A stretch of DNA of 64,000 nucleotides from Spirochaetota bacterium (GTDB lineage Bacteria > Spirochaetota > Spirochaetia > Treponematales > Rectinemataceae): contig JAPLSO010000051.1 of assembly GCA_026398595.1 (NCBI GenBank), forward strand, positions 170,198 to 234,197. The letters are read 5' to 3'. Position 1 is the stretch's first letter; every line of letters starts with the position of its first letter. Position numbers and translations under genes: made by a program. Of the stretch, positions 46,451 through 55,227 are shown one piece after another. The notes beneath the pieces were generated by a model. The model did no database searches and was not told where the DNA came from. It saw only the letters and a list, made by a program, of their open reading frames with translations.

Positions 46451-46811
46451 TGCTCGCCTCCGCATTGCCACGCCACGTGACCGGTCGGAGGGAGGAGAAG
46501 CGACGCTATCGAGCCTGCCGCCATCTCCAGGGGCCGAAACCGGCGACATGAAGAATGCTACATGGGAATGGATCTTCGGAATCGGTGCGTGCTTCGCAGC
46601 TTATCGCTGAAACGCGACTATAACTGCCATCCGCATCGTTCATGCATGTTCTCCTTTCGTCGTGTGGGGATCGACCTCATGGTCTTCAGGTAGTATGAAC
46701 GATCGAGAGCCTTCGGGCAAGTTCCCCGAGACCTGTTACCGTGAGAAAGGTCGAAAAATTGCCTGGGCCGGATGGCTCGATACCCTTCCCTCTTCCTGGT
46801 ATAATCAAGCC

Positions 46812-48203
46812 ATGAGCGAACATCACGGCAAATCGCGCCGACCGCATTCAGGCGACAGGCCCAGGCCACGGCCCGGCCTAAAAACCCAACCAAGCGTTTA
46901 TAGCCAATCCGGCCGCTCGACCCACGCTCAGGAGCCTCCCAGAACCGAAGTGCCCAGGCTCGAGCCCCTTCAATCCTTCAAGCTCGGTGAGGACTGCCTC
47001 AAAGCCCTGACTGAACTTCCCTCTATCCTCGACGAAATCGCGCCCATGACGCCCAGGCAAAAGCATGAACTCGGACGAAGCGTCCGATCCCTCTGGGAAG
47101 ACCTCACCTCGGAAAAGGAACACAGGACAGCCGAATACCTGAGTTCACCTGCCGACGCATCGGCGTACATGCGCTATTTCCTGCCATGGAACCTGATCCG
47201 TCTGGCCTCCATCTTCTCCTCCCTCCCCCTGCAGCTGGACGATGGAGCCTCGGTGATGGACATCGGTTCGGGCCCCTTGACCCTTCCCATCGCCCTCTAT
47301 CTCTCCAGATCCGACCTCCGCTCCAAACGACTGACCTTCTATTGTGCCGACAAGACGGAACGAATCCTCAAACAGGGACAGAACCTCTTCGAAAGCATCT
47401 GCGCCAGGGTTTCGGGCGCCCTCTCCCCCTGGAAAATTGTCCTCCTCCACCAGCAGTTTGGAGATTACCCGCCTGAAAAAGTCGATCTGGTGACAGCGGC
47501 CAACGTCTTCAACGAATTCTTCTGGAAGAGCAAGGCTCCTCTCGGCATGCGGGCATCCCTCACTGCCAGACAGCTTCTAGGCTATCTCAAAGGCTTGGGC
47601 TCGGTCTTCCTCATGGAGCCGGGCGATCCGAGATCGGGTTCCTTCATCAGCGCGATCCGAGCGGCTCTCTCCACCTTCGGTGCCCTGCCTGCCGCCCCTT
47701 GCCCCCACGTCTTCGCCTGTCCCCTTCCCGGCATTTTCCGCAGCCTCGAAACACCAGGGAACGAGAGCCCGACTGTTCTGGGAGCCAAGCATTTCCGTGA
47801 ACTCGTCATGCCGAAACGGCGCGAGAAATATCCTTGGTGTCATTTCACGATTGGCACCGGGGCCACGCCGCCATGGCTTAAAGCCCTCTCGGACGAGGCG
47901 GGATTATCCAAGGAGAAGCTGGTTTTTTCGTATCTGTTGTCCACCGTGCCCGCCGAACTTCCCCAGCCGGGGAACCAGAAATCCAAGCCGGGCGGACAAT
48001 CCTTCACCCGCGTCGTGTCGGAGGAGTTCCCCCTGCCGGGCAGGCTTCTCGGCCGTTATGCCTGTTCGGCAGAAGGCTACTCGCTGGTGCAGTATCCCCC
48101 CTCGGGCCGAAAGCCTTCGAGCGGAGATCTTTTACGCACGCCTTTTACGTCCAAGGACCACGTCATCGATGAAAAATCCGGGGCGATAATCGTTTCCTAT
48201 TGA
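46812..48203 (+). CDS. Rsm22-like SAM-dependent methyltransferase
   Basis: YMRYFLPWNLIRLASIFSSLPL, VMDIGSGPLTLPIALYLSRSDLRSKRLTFYCAD, conserved CPH/C-rich C-terminal region. Confidence 0.72.
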   Translation: MSEHHGKSRRPHSGDRPRPRPGLKTQPSVYSQSGRSTHAQEPPRTEVPRLEPLQSFKLGEDCLKALTELPSILDEIAPMTPRQKHELGRSVRSLWEDLTSEKEHRTAEYLSSPADASAYMRYFLPWNLIRLASIFSSLPLQLDDGASVMDIGSGPLTLPIALYLSRSDLRSKRLTFYCADKTERILKQGQNLFESICARVSGALSPWKIVLLHQQFGDYPPEKVDLVTAANVFNEFFWKSKAPLGMRASLTARQLLGYLKGLGSVFLMEPGDPRSGSFISAIRAALSTFGALPAAPCPHVFACPLPGIFRSLETPGNESPTVLGAKHFRELVMPKRREKYPWCHFTIGTGATPPWLKALSDEAGLSKEKLVFSYLLSTVPAELPQPGNQKSKPGGQSFTRVVSEEFPLPGRLLGRYACSAEGYSLVQYPPSGRKPSSGDLLRTPFTSKDHVIDEKSGAIIVSY

Positions 48204-48560: not shown

Positions 48561-49676
48561 ATGCGTGATTTCCTGTGTGCGATGCTCATCGCCATCCTCG
48601 GCGGCGCGACGCTTTCGGCAGCTCCTTCTTCCCATGAAACGGGCTTGCCTCCTTCGAAAAGTATCCTGACCGTTTTATGTTACCACAACATAGACATCAG
48701 GTCGCCGAAGAATTCCCCGTATTCGGTGACCTCGGCCCAATTGACCGATGAGCTGAATGCGCTCAAGGCAGCGGGCTTCGATTTTGTCTCACTGGAACAG
48801 GTACAGGCTTTCTACGCATCGGGCAAGCCGCTTCCCTCCAAATCTGCCCTTATCACCTTCGACGACGGACATGAGAATATCTATGAACATGCCTACCCGA
48901 TCCTCAAAAAAATGAATATTCCCTGGCTCTTGTTCGTCTTTCCTACCGCTATCGGAGGCGGCCACGAGAAAGGGTTCATGAACTGGGATGAGGTGCAACA
49001 GCTCAACAAAGAAGGAGTCGCGATCGGGAGCCATTCCTTTGATCATCCCTATCTGACACGTCCCGGAAAAGAGATATCGACTCCTGAGGCTTATGACGCA
49101 TGGCTCGATAAGGAACTCATCCGTTCCAAACGGCTGATCGAAGATAAGCTTGGTTCCCCAGTAAACGCGTTCGCTTCGCCTTTCGGAGCGCTCAACAATG
49201 TTGTGCAGCAACATATCAAAAACGCAGGGTATTCACTCGCGTTCAACATATTCGGCTCGAACAACGACGCACTGAACAATCCCCTTGAATTGAACCGGAT
49301 TATCGTGCTCAGCACCCATTCTCCCGAGATGGTCGTGAAGAAGGCTGAAGAGCGGCCCCTGCATTTCACTAAGGAGTTCCCAGGATCGCTGCAAGTATAT
49401 ACTGGGATGCTTGCGACGGCAGGTTTTTCCCTCGAGGGGATCGATGACTACATTCCTGGCTCGATTCAGGTGCTCATCAATGGAACCAGGATCGAAACAT
49501 TGAAAGAGAACGGTTCGTCCTTCATGTTCGATGTTCCCGCTCCTGGTCGTTCGAAAGGCTATATCGTTACAGTATATGCTCGAGGCAGGTCAGGCGAGAT
49601 CTTTTCGCAGAGCTACTATTTTATCTATGCCACAAAAAAACCGGATTTCCTCAAGCTGGCGCCGGCCAAAACGTAG
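48561..49676 (+). CDS. polysaccharide deacetylase family protein
   Basis: LTVLCYHNID, ALITFDDGHENIYEHAYPILKKMNIPWLLFVFPTAIGG, IGSHSFDHPYLT. Confidence 0.92.
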   Translation: MRDFLCAMLIAILGGATLSAAPSSHETGLPPSKSILTVLCYHNIDIRSPKNSPYSVTSAQLTDELNALKAAGFDFVSLEQVQAFYASGKPLPSKSALITFDDGHENIYEHAYPILKKMNIPWLLFVFPTAIGGGHEKGFMNWDEVQQLNKEGVAIGSHSFDHPYLTRPGKEISTPEAYDAWLDKELIRSKRLIEDKLGSPVNAFASPFGALNNVVQQHIKNAGYSLAFNIFGSNNDALNNPLELNRIIVLSTHSPEMVVKKAEERPLHFTKEFPGSLQVYTGMLATAGFSLEGIDDYIPGSIQVLINGTRIETLKENGSSFMFDVPAPGRSKGYIVTVYARGRSGEIFSQSYYFIYATKKPDFLKLAPAKT

Positions 49677-49761
49677 TCCCAGGCCGAATGAAGCACAGCG
49701 AGCTGAACGTAGAAGTTTTAAGGCAATCGGCCTGCGTGGATTAATCTTCAAAGGCAGACCC

Positions 49762-49796
49762 AAAAAAAGCCCACTGCGGGAAATCCGCAGCAGGCT
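49762..49796 (-). terminator. intrinsic terminator of the secreted-protein array (minus strand)
   Basis: Minus strand AGCC-TG-CTGCGG-ATTTC-CCGCAG-TG-GGCT then TTTTTTT. Confidence 0.75.
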
Positions 49797-49819
49797 CCAA
49801 TAGCTAAAAGTTGCAGAAT

Positions 49820-50281
49820 TTAGTGTGAATAAAGCGAAACGGTCAACGTATCCTGATATACACCAGCAGGAAGGCTCAGGCTCGACGCGGTTGCATAGGT
49901 TGCGGAGACCGCCAAGGTTGTTACAGGCTGTGTTCCGGTTGGTGCCAATGAATATGCAGTAGCTAGGTTAATGGCTGTTACAGATCCAACATTTAGCTTA
50001 TAGGGATACGCATTCGTACCATACATCATCTTGCCGCCATTCGCGGAAGTAATAGTGAGAGTATATCCATTAAGGTTCGAAGATATAACAATATTGCCCA
50101 AGCTTTTGCTTGTTTCCGTTGGATCAAGTGTGGAGGGTGAAGGTATAGTCGAACTCAGAGTAAGCGTATAATCCACACTCGCACTCAAGGTAATGTTCGA
50201 TGAACTGACCAATGTGTCGGTGGCAAACACTGGTACGCCGATAAGCGCGATCAAGAGAGCGATAATCAAAGGCTTTTTCAT
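49820..50281 (-). CDS. small secreted pilin/spore-coat-U-like beta protein, array member 1
   Basis: Signal peptide MKKPLIIALLIALIGVPVFA; LGNIVISSNLNGYTLTITSANGG...PAGVYQDTLTVSL; RBS GAGGAG. Confidence 0.7.
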   Translation of the reverse strand: MKKPLIIALLIALIGVPVFATDTLVSSSNITLSASVDYTLTLSSTIPSPSTLDPTETSKSLGNIVISSNLNGYTLTITSANGGKMMYGTNAYPYKLNVGSVTAINLATAYSLAPTGTQPVTTLAVSATYATASSLSLPAGVYQDTLTVSLYSH

Positions 50282-50361
50282 TTCTTTCTCCTCATAAAAA
50301 CTTTAAAACATAATACTTGGATAGACTTTTACAATACACATAGCTTCATGTCAATACACCA

Positions 50362-50853
50362 TCAATCACCTAATAGTGATATTGTAATTGTATCGTGGTA
50401 GATGCCCATGGGCCAAATAATCCCAACATGCGGAAGAAAAGTAAGGTATAAGGTCAATAATTCCCCGCTGGAGGCGGTTTTCTGCTGGGCAGCACTCTGG
50501 ATCGCAAACCGGGACACAACCACCGTATCCCCATCTTTTATGGCAAATAAATAAGGAATATAGGTTTCCCCATCGTCAAGCTTGAGCCTTCCGGTATCTT
50601 GATTCTGTGCGTAGCTGGAACTGATGCTCATTTTCCACGCTGCTTGGTTACTGATGACAAGTGCGTTGCTGACTGCCTTGGTGGTTATCACATCATCGTT
50701 TTCGTTCAGCAAATCAATAGTCTCGGGATCAGCCATTGTGATATGCAGAATTGATGGAACATCACCTATCACGACAAGACGATTGTTGTCTTGGGCAAGA
50801 ATAGATAATTGAATAAAGAAAAAAGCAATCAAGAAAGATACTATCTTTTTCAT
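50362..50853 (-). CDS. small secreted beta protein, array member 2 (most divergent)
   Basis: Signal peptide MKKIVSFLIAFFFIQLSILA; ALVISNQAAWKMSISSS...PMGIYHDTITISLLGD. Confidence 0.68.
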   Translation of the reverse strand: MKKIVSFLIAFFFIQLSILAQDNNRLVVIGDVPSILHITMADPETIDLLNENDDVITTKAVSNALVISNQAAWKMSISSSYAQNQDTGRLKLDDGETYIPYLFAIKDGDTVVVSRFAIQSAAQQKTASSGELLTLYLTFLPHVGIIWPMGIYHDTITISLLGD

Positions 50854-50892
50854 TTACTTATTCAACCAAAACTTTTTGGAAATCGGACATAT

Positions 50893-50926
50893 AGCAAGGC
50901 GACAATCAATTGATCAACGCCTTGCT
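50893..50926 (-). terminator. hairpin downstream of array member 3
   Basis: AGCAAGGCG/CGCCTTGCT 9-bp arms (50893-50901 and 50918-50926); no long U tract. Confidence 0.5.
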
Positions 50927-50939
50927 GCTTAATAATCAC

Positions 50940-51476
50940 TCAGGTTGTAGCTGTAATAGTGATAGTGATTGTATCAGTGTAAGCAGTACTGGCTTGGTAA
51001 AGCAATGCGCTGTCGTCCTGGTTGCTGGCTGCAACAGTAAGTACATAATCGACACCAGTTTTAGTCGTTCTGCCGCCATCGGTAATCGTAACATCCTTAG
51101 CCGCAGTAAGCTGAACGGCGGTTAGGACGGTTCCGGTTGGAGTAGTACCAGCTGCAGTGCTGACCGCAAGCGTGTAAGGGATTGCCACGCCACTAATAGC
51201 AGGGTCCTTCAGAGTACCAAGATTCGTAGAAGTGAAAGAAAGCTTGTACGCCTTTTTATTTGAGATGACCGTAAGCGTTCCATTCTTGTCTGCACTGGGG
51301 TTTGTCGAAGCATTGTTGAAGTTGTCGGGAAACGTAATACTGATCGGCGTATTGGTCACATTAACATACAAAACCGGGCTGACGGTAGCGTTTACCACGA
51401 GATCGGGATTGGATGCCGCCGAAACGGAGCCGACTGCCACAAGGGCAGCGATCAGAAGAACCGCAAACTTTTTCAT
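50940..51476 (-). CDS. small secreted beta protein, array member 3
   Basis: Signal peptide MKKFAVLLIAALVAVGSVSA; LTVISNKKAYKLSFTSTNLGTL...YTDTITITITATT. Confidence 0.72.
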   Translation of the reverse strand: MKKFAVLLIAALVAVGSVSAASNPDLVVNATVSPVLYVNVTNTPISITFPDNFNNASTNPSADKNGTLTVISNKKAYKLSFTSTNLGTLKDPAISGVAIPYTLAVSTAAGTTPTGTVLTAVQLTAAKDVTITDGGRTTKTGVDYVLTVAASNQDDSALLYQASTAYTDTITITITATT

Positions 51477-51598
51477 ATACACCTCACAATTCTTTACCCT
51501 GCTCAAGCAGGATTTTTTATCGTGTGGAAAAAGACAGAAGGCAGAACACAGAAGCAGATCATCTGTACTTTCTCACAATCACAACTTTGATCAACTTA

Positions 51599-51628
51599 AT
51601 TGTACCAACAACACTAAAAGCATGTCAA
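51599..51628 (-). promoter_or_regulatory. sigma70-like promoter of array member 3
   Basis: Minus strand TTGACA-18 nt-TACAAT. Confidence 0.65.
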
Positions 51629-51645
51629 TTACTTCCTATAGTTCC

Positions 51646-52164
51646 TCAAGCACCGATAACCGTAACGGTGATGGTATCAGCGTAATCTGTGGCGGTTTGC
51701 CAGAGTGTATCAGTCACATTCTGAGCAGGAATGGAAATCGTCAGCAGATAACCGACACCCTGCTTGGGAGTTTTGCCGCCCGCGGTTGCCTGGATGGTTT
51801 TACTCGCGCCCATCAGAACGGTGCTCGACATAGAATTCGTTACGGTACCAGTGAAAGTTCCCTGGAGGGCAGCCTGGATATAATAAGGAATACTCGTTGT
51901 GGTAGCAGTGCTGTAAAGGCTCCCCGATTTGGCTGAAGTAAGCGTAACAGTCCAGGCAGTAGTATTGGCAAAAACCGTTAAAAGGGATGTAGAGGCTGCA
52001 GCGGTTCCAGCGCTTCCATCACCCGTGAAAGAAAATGCCATAGAGGAAGTGCCAAGTGTTACATTTGTGTAATTCGCAACGCTTCCAGTGAGTCCGAGAG
52101 TCGCGGCTGAAGCCGAACTCACGGCGATGAGCGTGGCAACCAGAAGAAGAACCAACTTTTTCAT
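51646..52164 (-). CDS. small secreted beta protein, array member 4
   Basis: Signal peptide MKKLVLLLVATLIAVSSASA; LTVFANTTAWTVTLTSAKSGSL...GGKTPKQGVGYLLTISIPAQNVTDTLWQTATDYADTITVTVIGA. Confidence 0.72.
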   Translation of the reverse strand: MKKLVLLLVATLIAVSSASAATLGLTGSVANYTNVTLGTSSMAFSFTGDGSAGTAAASTSLLTVFANTTAWTVTLTSAKSGSLYSTATTTSIPYYIQAALQGTFTGTVTNSMSSTVLMGASKTIQATAGGKTPKQGVGYLLTISIPAQNVTDTLWQTATDYADTITVTVIGA

Positions 52165-52442
52165 ATAGGCCTCCGAGAACTTTTCCTGTCAGCGACAGGT
52201 TTTAAATATGTTGATTGGAAGAAAGATGCCTGACAAACAGAAGTTGTACTTTTTTTATGCCCGATGTAGAACTTTTTCCTTCTCAATCAGTTGAAAAGAT
52301 TGTCTTCATTTATAAGAAATAAGTCAATGGGTCTAGATTATATTTCACTCCATAATTACCGATGCGTACCGATTTTAAAATTCTTTTGGAAATCAACGGT
52401 GAACGCGATCTATTAAAGCGGAAAAGCAAAAGACGGCATTTT

Positions 52443-52471
52443 AAAAAACCGACGGGATTTCTCCCGCCGGT
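52443..52471 (-). terminator. intrinsic terminator of array member 5
   Basis: Minus strand ACCGGCGGGAGAAATCCCGTCGGTTTTTT. Confidence 0.8.
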
Positions 52472-52492
52472 CAGTGCCCTGGTCCGCCTCCG

Positions 52493-52969
52493 TCAAGATC
52501 CGGAGATCGTCACCGTAAGCGTATCGCTGTAGGTTCCAGTCTGCCAGAACGTTGTCGTGCTGGCGGTGAACGCGATCGACAACGCGTAGGTGGTGCCCGC
52601 CTTCGGCGTCTTGTTCTGAGCCGTACTGGTCCACGTGGTGTTCAGACTCTTGGCCGAAGCCAAGGATCCAAGCGTCATCGTGTACGTGGCCGTCTCGCTG
52701 GCATCGGCGGTATTCTTCAAATAGCCGCCGTTAACAGACGAAATCGCTATGGTCCAGCTGTTATAGTTGCTCGTCACACCTATATTGCCAATGCTCCAGG
52801 TGTTGGCCGCTCCGGACGTATCATCCATCACAGCAGTAAAAGAACCCGGGAGCGTCAGCGCGAGCTGGGGAGCCACCGTTCCAGTCATGCCAACCGTACC
52901 AGTCGTAGCCGCAGACGCAAAACCCAACATGGCAAGCGCGAACAGAGACACGAAAGCAAACTTTTTCAT
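52493..52969 (-). CDS. small secreted beta protein, array member 5
   Basis: Signal peptide MKKFAFVSLFALAMLGFASA; IGVTSNYNSWTIAISSVNGGYL...NKTPKAGTTYALSIAFTASTTTFWQTGTYSDTLTVTISGS. Confidence 0.74.
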   Translation of the reverse strand: MKKFAFVSLFALAMLGFASAATTGTVGMTGTVAPQLALTLPGSFTAVMDDTSGAANTWSIGNIGVTSNYNSWTIAISSVNGGYLKNTADASETATYTMTLGSLASAKSLNTTWTSTAQNKTPKAGTTYALSIAFTASTTTFWQTGTYSDTLTVTISGS

Positions 52970-53057
52970 GAGAGACTCCTGAGCCATGTATGCCATGGCA
53001 ACTTTTGTAAATTTGCGCCTCTGCGCCATAGGGGCGTGAGACGCATACTTTGAAAAA

Positions 53058-53087
53058 AGTATATGCGGCATTAAAACCTAATGTCAA
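53058..53087 (-). promoter_or_regulatory. sigma70-like promoter of array member 5
   Basis: Minus strand TTGACA-18 nt-TATACT. Confidence 0.65.
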
Positions 53088-53117
53088 TAGTTGGCAGAAT
53101 AGACAAGCGCTTCGATT

Positions 53118-54410
53118 TCAGCTTTCCCTGATCACGAGATCCTCGTAGTTCTCCCGTCGGACGGAAAGTCTGTACCCTCCGCCTCGGGTCATGACTACGG
53201 CTGGCCTCGGGATGCGGTTGTAATTCGAGGCCATGGAGTGGTTATACGCCCCCGTCGAGAATACGGCGAGGATATCACCCGTTTCAGGATCGGGAAGCCC
53301 GAGGTCGCGAATGAGGATGTCGCCCATTTCGCAGCATTTTCCCGCTATAGTCACGGTCTTGGAGGGCTCAAGGCCGGCTTTATTGGCTAAAAGTCCATAG
53401 TATTTTGCCTCGTAAAGCGCCGGTCGGATGTTGTCAGCCATGCCTCCGTCGACGCCTACGTAGGTTCGGATCCCCGGGATGGTTTTTACCGATCGGATGG
53501 TGTAGAGAGTCAGGCCGGCCTCGCCAATGATCCACCGGCCCGGTTCTATCGCCACCCACGGCATGGGGAGCCCGGCCTCGGCTGTCTTTTCGGCAATGAG
53601 GGCCATCATAGGGTCGAGGAAGTAGGAAAGGCCTGGCGCATTGTCGGATGGCAGGTACTTGATGCCAAAGCCGCCGCCCAGGATAAGTTCCTTCGTCTCG
53701 AAGCCGTATGAAGCTTTGACGTCAGCCATGAGCTTCAGGGCTATGCCTGTGGCAGCCAGATGGGAGAAATTGTCGTAGAGCTGGGAGCCGATGTGGAAGT
53801 GAAAGCCCCTGAAATCGATATGGGCCGCGTCGAGGACTGCCCGCATGTAGAGGTCACATACGGAAGGGTCGAGAGGGATCCCGAATTTGGAGTCGAGGCT
53901 CCCTGTCGATATGAATCGATGCGTGTGACTGTCCACACCCGGGGTTATCCGGTACAGCAGGGCTTGGCGCCTTCCCAGGCCGGCGGCAATCCGTTCGATC
54001 TCGGCCACCTCGGCCAGATTGTCGGAGACGATCCTCCCGACGCCAACCCGTAGAGCGTAATCCAGCTCATCGGTCGACTTGGCGTTGCCGTGGAAGGTGA
54101 TTCGACGGGGATCGACTCCAGCCTTGAGGGCCGCAAAGAGCTCGCCGCCAGACACGGCATCCATGCCCAGGCCTTCCTGGATGACGATCCTGCACATGTC
54201 GAGAGTCTGGAAAGCCTTGCTGGCGTAATAAGCAGCCGTATTGGGGTATTTTTCGAGAAAGGCCGAGCGGATTTCCGCGCAGCGTTCCCTGACCAGGGAT
54301 TCCGAGACAACGTAGAGGGGAGTGCCCTGTTCGGCGGCAAGCTGGACAAGGTCGACGCCGTCGAGAAAGAGTCTGCCGTCTTTTACGGATGCGTGGGAGT
54401 TCGGTACCAT
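53118..54410 (-). CDS. lysA: diaminopimelate decarboxylase
   Basis: GTPLYVVSESL, YYASKAFQTLDMCRIV, ITFHGNAKSTDELDYAL, GFHFHIGSQL, STGAYNHSMASNYN. Confidence 0.95.
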   Translation of the reverse strand: MVPNSHASVKDGRLFLDGVDLVQLAAEQGTPLYVVSESLVRERCAEIRSAFLEKYPNTAAYYASKAFQTLDMCRIVIQEGLGMDAVSGGELFAALKAGVDPRRITFHGNAKSTDELDYALRVGVGRIVSDNLAEVAEIERIAAGLGRRQALLYRITPGVDSHTHRFISTGSLDSKFGIPLDPSVCDLYMRAVLDAAHIDFRGFHFHIGSQLYDNFSHLAATGIALKLMADVKASYGFETKELILGGGFGIKYLPSDNAPGLSYFLDPMMALIAEKTAEAGLPMPWVAIEPGRWIIGEAGLTLYTIRSVKTIPGIRTYVGVDGGMADNIRPALYEAKYYGLLANKAGLEPSKTVTIAGKCCEMGDILIRDLGLPDPETGDILAVFSTGAYNHSMASNYNRIPRPAVVMTRGGGYRLSVRRENYEDLVIRES

Positions 54411-54504
54411 AGCGAGGATAGTACACGATTCATCCGCGGTAATAAAGAGAGAAAATGATCCGCCCCGGTGGAACGCGAAGGACGGGTCGTATAGAATGTG
54501 CTGT

Positions 54505-55227
54505 ATGAAACCGCTTATCGGAGTATCGACATTCAATGAAAAACAGCCAAGGTCCGTATACTGCTCGGTCAGCGTCCGCTACCTGCAATCGGTCTCAGAC
54601 GCGGGGGGCCTCGCCGTCACTCTGCCAGTGAGCTCCCCCGGCGAAGCTGAAGCCTTCATCGTCAGGATCGACGGACTCATCCTCACTGGCGGCAAAGATA
54701 CCGATCCCGAGTTCTACGGACAAGAACCGGCCAGGGGCCTGCGAACTTTCGACTCCCAGCGCGATGAATGGGAATTGGCCCTCTTCCGGGCAGCCCTCGA
54801 GAGAGGAATCCCCGTGCTAGGCATCTGCAGGGGACATCAACTCATCAACATAGCCCTGGGTGGAAACGTATACCAGGACCTTTTAATCCACCGTCCCGGC
54901 ACGAACCTCCACAATCCTGAGGAATTCCCCGTCGATCGTCCATTTCATGGCATTTCCATCATCGAAGGTTCATTGCTCCACAAGGTTTTAGGGGAAACCT
55001 TGACGAGGGTGAACAGCTTCCACCACCAGGCCGTGAAGGATCTGGGCCAAGGCCTGACGGTTACCGCCCTGGCCGCGGATGGGGTCGTGGAAGCCATCGA
55101 GTCGACCGATCCGGATCGATTCATCCTGGGTGTACAATTCCACCCCGAGGGGCTCACCAGGATTTCCCCTAAGTTCCTGGGCATCTTTTCAGCCTTTGTG
55201 AACGAAGCGAGCAAGCCGAAAGCCTGA
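54505..55227 (+). CDS. gamma-glutamyl-gamma-aminobutyrate hydrolase family (peptidase C26, class I GATase-like)
   Basis: LILTGGKDTDPEFYGQEP, RDEWELALFRAALERGIPVLGICRGHQLINIALGGNVYQDL, VNSFHHQAVKD, GVQFHPE. Confidence 0.92.
   Translation: MKPLIGVSTFNEKQPRSVYCSVSVRYLQSVSDAGGLAVTLPVSSPGEAEAFIVRIDGLILTGGKDTDPEFYGQEPARGLRTFDSQRDEWELALFRAALERGIPVLGICRGHQLINIALGGNVYQDLLIHRPGTNLHNPEEFPVDRPFHGISIIEGSLLHKVLGETLTRVNSFHHQAVKDLGQGLTVTALAADGVVEAIESTDPDRFILGVQFHPEGLTRISPKFLGIFSAFVNEASKPKA

Follow-up and report, generated by a model that had tools for sequence, protein, structure and literature searches.

Five pilin-like genes beside lysA in a Rectinemataceae spirochaete: probable subunits of a divergent chaperone-usher pilus

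The 64,000 nt stretch of DNA analysed here (the window), from a 2.85 Mb draft assembly of a Spirochaetota bacterium of the Rectinemataceae (GCA_026398595.1, contig JAPLSO010000051.1), contains five tandem minus-strand open reading frames (ORFs; 49820-52969) that encode small secreted proteins, and the question raised by this array is what its products build and by which route they are assembled. A first-pass annotation described a family of divergent structural proteins that form fibres and have multiplied by duplication, remarked on a resemblance to spore-coat-U (SCPU) and chaperone-usher subunits, and raised the possibility that the proteins are assembled without a chaperone-usher system. 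The profile, synteny and fold evidence supports the family and the resemblance, whereas the alternative route finds no support: the five proteins are very probably pilins, belonging to a chaperone-usher pilus of a divergent, archaic-like type, with the array supplying further subunits in trans. The observations behind this reading, all of them computational, are homology to usher-linked subunits, co-occurrence across genomes, gene order, fold similarity and a donor-strand pattern. The array genes, with lengths in amino acids (aa), are:

52493..52969, minus strand: array subunit 1 (P0005, 158 aa), candidate rod-forming pilin with a signal peptide, donor-strand motif VGMTGTV and C-terminal strand YSDTLTVTISGS
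51646..52164, minus strand: array subunit 2 (P0004, 172 aa), pilin-like by the profile of the five and by pairing with G011_b of a related genome
50940..51476, minus strand: array subunit 3 (P0003, 178 aa), pilin-like by the profile of the five, an AlphaFold model and pairing with G011_b
50362..50853, minus strand: array subunit 4 (P0002, 163 aa), pilin-like, with a weak SCPU match (E 0.12, below the cut-off) and orthologue G011_c
49820..50281, minus strand: array subunit 5 (P0001, 153 aa), pilin-like, with orthologue G011_d

Counted from their MKK starts the proteins are 153-178 aa long, a wider range than the 153-172 aa first given, and all five have a typical N-terminal signal peptide, as judged by reading the sequence. 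They are related, the others being 23-29% identical to the first in an alignment of the five, and their sequence complexity is low. The shared mid motif and the C-terminal strand Y-x-D-T-[IL]-T that had been pointed out are real, with the Tyr present in 74 and the Asp in 70 of 75 members of the wider family. There is, as also stated, no cysteine in the mature proteins (none beyond residue 22 in all five), with at least one cysteine found in 12 of the 75, and the region is AT-rich, at 46.5% G+C versus 58.5-59.1% in the flanking DNA.

The chaperone-usher locus on contig C11

When searched against the host's own genome, a profile of the five array proteins recovers each of them and, on contig C11, a pilin encoded directly upstream of a chaperone gene (E 1.1e-12); it also finds the C-terminal part of a two-domain protein encoded just downstream of an usher gene on that contig (E 9.1e-8). 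This locus (L011) has, in order of transcription, genes for the pilin (157 aa), the chaperone, the usher (830 aa) and the two-domain tip-like protein (~318-334 aa). The array proteins are homologous to subunits, the C11 pilin and tip protein, that are encoded with a PapD-type chaperone and an usher, and the presence of a two-domain tip protein gene within the usher locus is a feature shared with archaic, Csu-like systems. The statement that no chaperone, usher or sortase lies nearby holds for the window, in which searches with chaperone and usher profiles gave no match at E<=10, but not for the genome. The first-pass annotation had itself named, as a finding that would overturn its view, a chaperone-usher operon elsewhere to which these proteins clearly belong, and the C11 operon largely answers that description. 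A sortase (PF04203) has no match in the whole genome, in a search with positive controls, and sortase assembly was rejected.

The C11 chaperone matches PapD_N above the curated cut-off (E 3.3e-9). In the chaperone alignment every second residue of a G1-like strand, SGVKVLFRYIAALYV, is hydrophobic, and this strand has an invariant Tyr that, by its place there, looks like Tyr116 of CsuC, the conserved residue with which the CsuC donor motif starts (PMC4654587). The NCBIfam PefC/AfrB usher aligns with residues 178-636 of the C11 usher (E 2.8e-9), and PF00577 is matched by 12 of 15 aligned usher relatives (best E 5e-12). An annotated Leptolyngbya usher, adjoined by a periplasmic chaperone, is 24.7% identical over 88% of the C11 usher (tblastn, E 5e-17). 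Searches of PDB sequences with the usher and chaperone profiles gave no usable match, and the usher is identified from Pfam, NCBIfam, the annotated Leptolyngbya usher and gene order. That C11 is a contaminant is judged unlikely, given that its tetranucleotide composition agrees with that of the window (r 0.93) and that its usher is closest (54%) to the usher of G011, the related genome with a collinear array.

A further family member (188 aa) is encoded on contig C53 (L012, 4828-5394), alone beside housekeeping genes, and lone members are also present in several relatives (L082, L085, L096, L097).

Occurrence and gene order among relatives

In a sample of 61 related genomes, usher and family occur together in 21, the family without the usher in 2, the usher without the family in none, and 38 have neither (Fisher 2e-14, and 8e-6 within the host's own family, both uncorrected for shared ancestry). 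The relatives that have names are Rectinema subterraneum and Spirochaetaceae/Treponema assemblies. Family members adjoin chaperone or usher genes in G005, G010, G012, G013, G014, G018, G022 and G030, and two-domain tip-like proteins (305-347 aa) with family domains adjoin the usher across loci. A separate, phylum-wide sample was searched, leaving out weak family matches (E 1e-3 to 1e-8), many of which span just the signal-peptide end of the protein. Beyond the host's family it has strong matches in three other spirochaete families, four genomes in all, each of which keeps the order pilin-chaperone-usher-two-domain protein.

The array itself stands alone beside lysA in seven relatives (G008, G011, G019, G021, G025, G028, G029), with 2 to 5 members in each. 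The G011 array is collinear with that of the window, P0005 corresponding to G011_a (57% identical), P0004 and P0003 together to G011_b, P0002 to G011_c and P0001 to G011_d. The expansion is old, because array members pair with their G011 orthologues and not with one another, save for P0003 and P0004, which, as judged from their sequences, are the exception and derive from one later duplication. The array is, in short, an old and conserved subunit locus, linked to lysA in seven relatives and collinear with one of them, and so its products are most likely assembled in trans.

Several other arrangements were seen in these genomes. In G011, the lysA-linked array ends in a two-domain tip-like protein that is cut by the contig end (contig C96, L066, 8492-9371), so arrays may have a tip subunit of their own. 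In G013 and G022, one subunit gene lies between two genes for PapD-type chaperones (L070, 7552-9842, and L074, 3098-5278, respectively), which suggests a chaperone dedicated to that subunit. Genomes of another spirochaete family, f13 (for example G272:C6:9079-10026), have frames of ~1050-1310 aa in which the usher profile is matched over its N-terminal part, and which are possibly a different, larger type of usher.

Predicted fold and donor strand

AlphaFold was given sequences from the window and from related loci, and two of the array proteins were modelled, P0005 with a pLDDT of 91.4 and P0003 with 83.7. For both models the top Foldseek matches in the PDB are chaperone-usher pilins (CfaB, CsuA/B in the archaic Csu pilus, CS17, FimG, PapE and SafA), CfaB being the best match in each case, and both are predicted to adopt the Ig-like fold of this type of pilin. 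No strand is present in the N-terminal extension of either model, the region in which the family has, after the signal peptide, the pattern hydrophobic-x-hydrophobic-x-[G/A]-x-V. At P0005 columns 26, 28, 30 and 32 the 75 family members are 83% hydrophobic, 100% hydrophobic, 83% small and 99% hydrophobic, respectively. The motif is found in 65 of the 75, as compared with 36 +/- 4 in shuffles, and by its sequence would be a conserved N-terminal donor strand.

Direct database searches returned less. The single array proteins gave nothing usable against PDB sequences. The best SCPU (PF05229) score in the window is 13.1 bits (P0002; gathering cut-off 22.4), and at E<=0.1 there is an SCPU match for 13 of the 75 family members (best 1.2e-5). 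A PF05229 search of the host's own genome gave no match, so the family is reachable solely through the profile of the array itself. DUF4402 (PF14352) is matched by no window protein at its gathering cut-off and by one family member at E 0.078, and a PEP-CTERM FxDxF match of P0003 (E 8.5e-4) was rejected as sub-threshold (19.6 bits, cut-off 50). The 75-member profile has weak matches in the PDB to the CupE pilin (8cio, E 0.009) and CsuE (E 0.44). With all five proteins below the Pfam SCPU threshold, they are best described as divergent subunits, forming a family within a system that is already known.

The low sequence complexity and the weak direct matches would both be expected if these were unrelated secreted beta-sandwich proteins, with strands rich in Thr, Ser and Val that resemble pilins by convergence. 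This is extremely improbable in the face of profile matches to usher-operon pilins, the conserved neighbourhood, the co-occurrence with ushers and fold matches that are mostly to chaperone-usher pilins, and it is in part contradicted by the family members encoded in such operons in independent families.

Among the weaker Foldseek matches are TLP/TasA fibres and the fibre protein of Pyrodictium cannulae (9h8b). They lend some weight to a second explanation, in which strand exchange between the array subunits, with no usher involved, yields an extracellular fibre or coat of their own, as in TasA-like fibres and Pyrodictium cannulae. In most genomes, too, the array is unlinked to an usher, and two genomes have family members with no usher detected. 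Chaperone-usher pilins nevertheless rank above the other folds, the family is present in every usher genome and the usher in 21 of 23 family genomes, and usher loci have family members as their own pilins and tip proteins. Polymerisation without an usher is accordingly very unlikely.

Assembly in trans and its biological meaning

If the five proteins are pilins of the C11 system, as favoured here, they would be exported by Sec and capped in the periplasm by the C11 PapD-type chaperone, which would lend its G1 strand, and then polymerised at the C11 outer-membrane usher by donor-strand exchange, the N-terminal extension of each subunit filling the groove of the preceding subunit. The two-domain C11 protein would sit at the tip of the pilus, as CsuE does in Csu pili (PMC9452303), and the array would contribute rod, adaptor or alternative subunits in trans; the proteins may also have an adhesive role. 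As the array is unlinked to the usher, assembly in trans is the step we infer. The system is termed archaic-like rather than archaic, the archaic subclass being marked by an A'-A''/B-B' twin hairpin with a second binding site (PMC9452303).

Several observations weigh against this reading. The separation of array and usher is itself one, and none of the five array proteins passes any Pfam or NCBIfam cut-off when searched singly. The C11 usher narrowly misses the PF00577 cut-off (score 25.5, cut-off 27.1), and in G015 (82% complete) and G020 (93%) a family member is present with no usher detected. The Foldseek TM-scores are modest at ~0.3-0.6, a plausible reason being that each of the chains compared donates a strand to the next one, and the best E-values are 1e-4 to 1e-5. 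The assembly, in 69 contigs, has an estimated contamination of 5.6%.

The composition inferred here is that of archaic (sigma) chaperone-usher pili, namely the Csu pili of Acinetobacter and the CupE pili of Pseudomonas, with single-domain pilins, a two-domain tip protein, a PapD-type chaperone and an usher (for Csu, PMC9452303). CsuA/B, CsuE and the CupE pilin also appear among the fold matches and the weak profile matches, and the invariant Tyr of the chaperone G1 strand is a further point of likeness. Unlike Csu and CupE, the spirochaete sequences are mostly below family thresholds, the array subunits are encoded away from the machinery and the array members have no Cys. CfaB, the major pilin of CFA/I-type pili, is the best fold match of both models, but at 11-16% identity, a TM-score of ~0.45-0.6 and no match at the sequence level. 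Among cyanobacterial SCPU/PapD/usher loci there are also cases of subunit genes unlinked from the usher, and the Synechocystis cccSP genes, with the usher homologue slr0019 away from the subunit and chaperone genes, provide a proposed precedent for assembly in trans (PMC4390875). Subunit and chaperone genes are together in Synechocystis, whereas here five subunit genes stand alone beside lysA.

Candidate regulatory sites and the adjoining gene are:

53118..54536, minus strand: lysA, decarboxylase gene named by reading the sequence, the conserved upstream neighbour of the array in relatives
53058..53087, minus strand: sigma-70-like promoter candidate upstream of subunit 1, TTGACA-18-TATACT, a consensus match only
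52438..52475, minus strand: hairpin then T run 3' of subunit 1, a probable, possibly partial, terminator (z -3.4; missed by the consensus scan)
51599..51628, minus strand: sigma-70-like promoter candidate upstream of subunit 3, TTGACA-18-TACAAT with TG before the second hexamer, a consensus match only
49766..49798, minus strand: intrinsic terminator-like site 3' of the last subunit (z -3.8; also in the consensus scan)

P0005 is a candidate for the rod-building member, being first in the array, with its own promoter-like site and a 3' hairpin and T run, through which high, separate expression would be possible. The separate promoter and terminator candidates, five divergent paralogues and an array make-up that varies between 2 and 5 members among genomes would also suit a variant of the favoured reading, in which the array encodes alternative subunits, not main structural ones, that are swapped with the C11 pilin and so vary the surface or its stickiness. 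The stable order of orthologues between two genomes suggests fixed rather than switched roles, and the variant, although a serious contender, is the less likely arrangement. More doubtful still is a spirochaete-specific class of chaperone-usher pili, in which a conserved set of divergent subunits, encoded beside lysA and separately from the machinery, would build a second, usher-independent fibre or be swapped into the usher-built one.

The lysA gene itself is probably not functionally part of the array. Genes on the far sides, at 46662-48203 (46662 methyltransferase-like, by reading) and 54322-55227 (54322 glutamine-amidotransferase-like, by reading), are also kept around the array in relatives such as G028, and the array thus marks a stable neighbourhood.

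Chaperone-usher pili have been studied mainly in Proteobacteria, and a literature search, of open papers only, found no description of them in spirochaetes. The system is of an ordinary kind, in a bacterial group for which no description was found. Several spirochaete families have a complete set of chaperone-usher genes, and with the subunit family mostly under standard database thresholds, these genes would often be labelled hypothetical in automated annotation. Subunit genes can, as seen here, stay stably apart from the assembly machinery, and the genes provide a hypothesis, open to testing, on how Rectinema and other free-living spirochaetes may adhere to surfaces.

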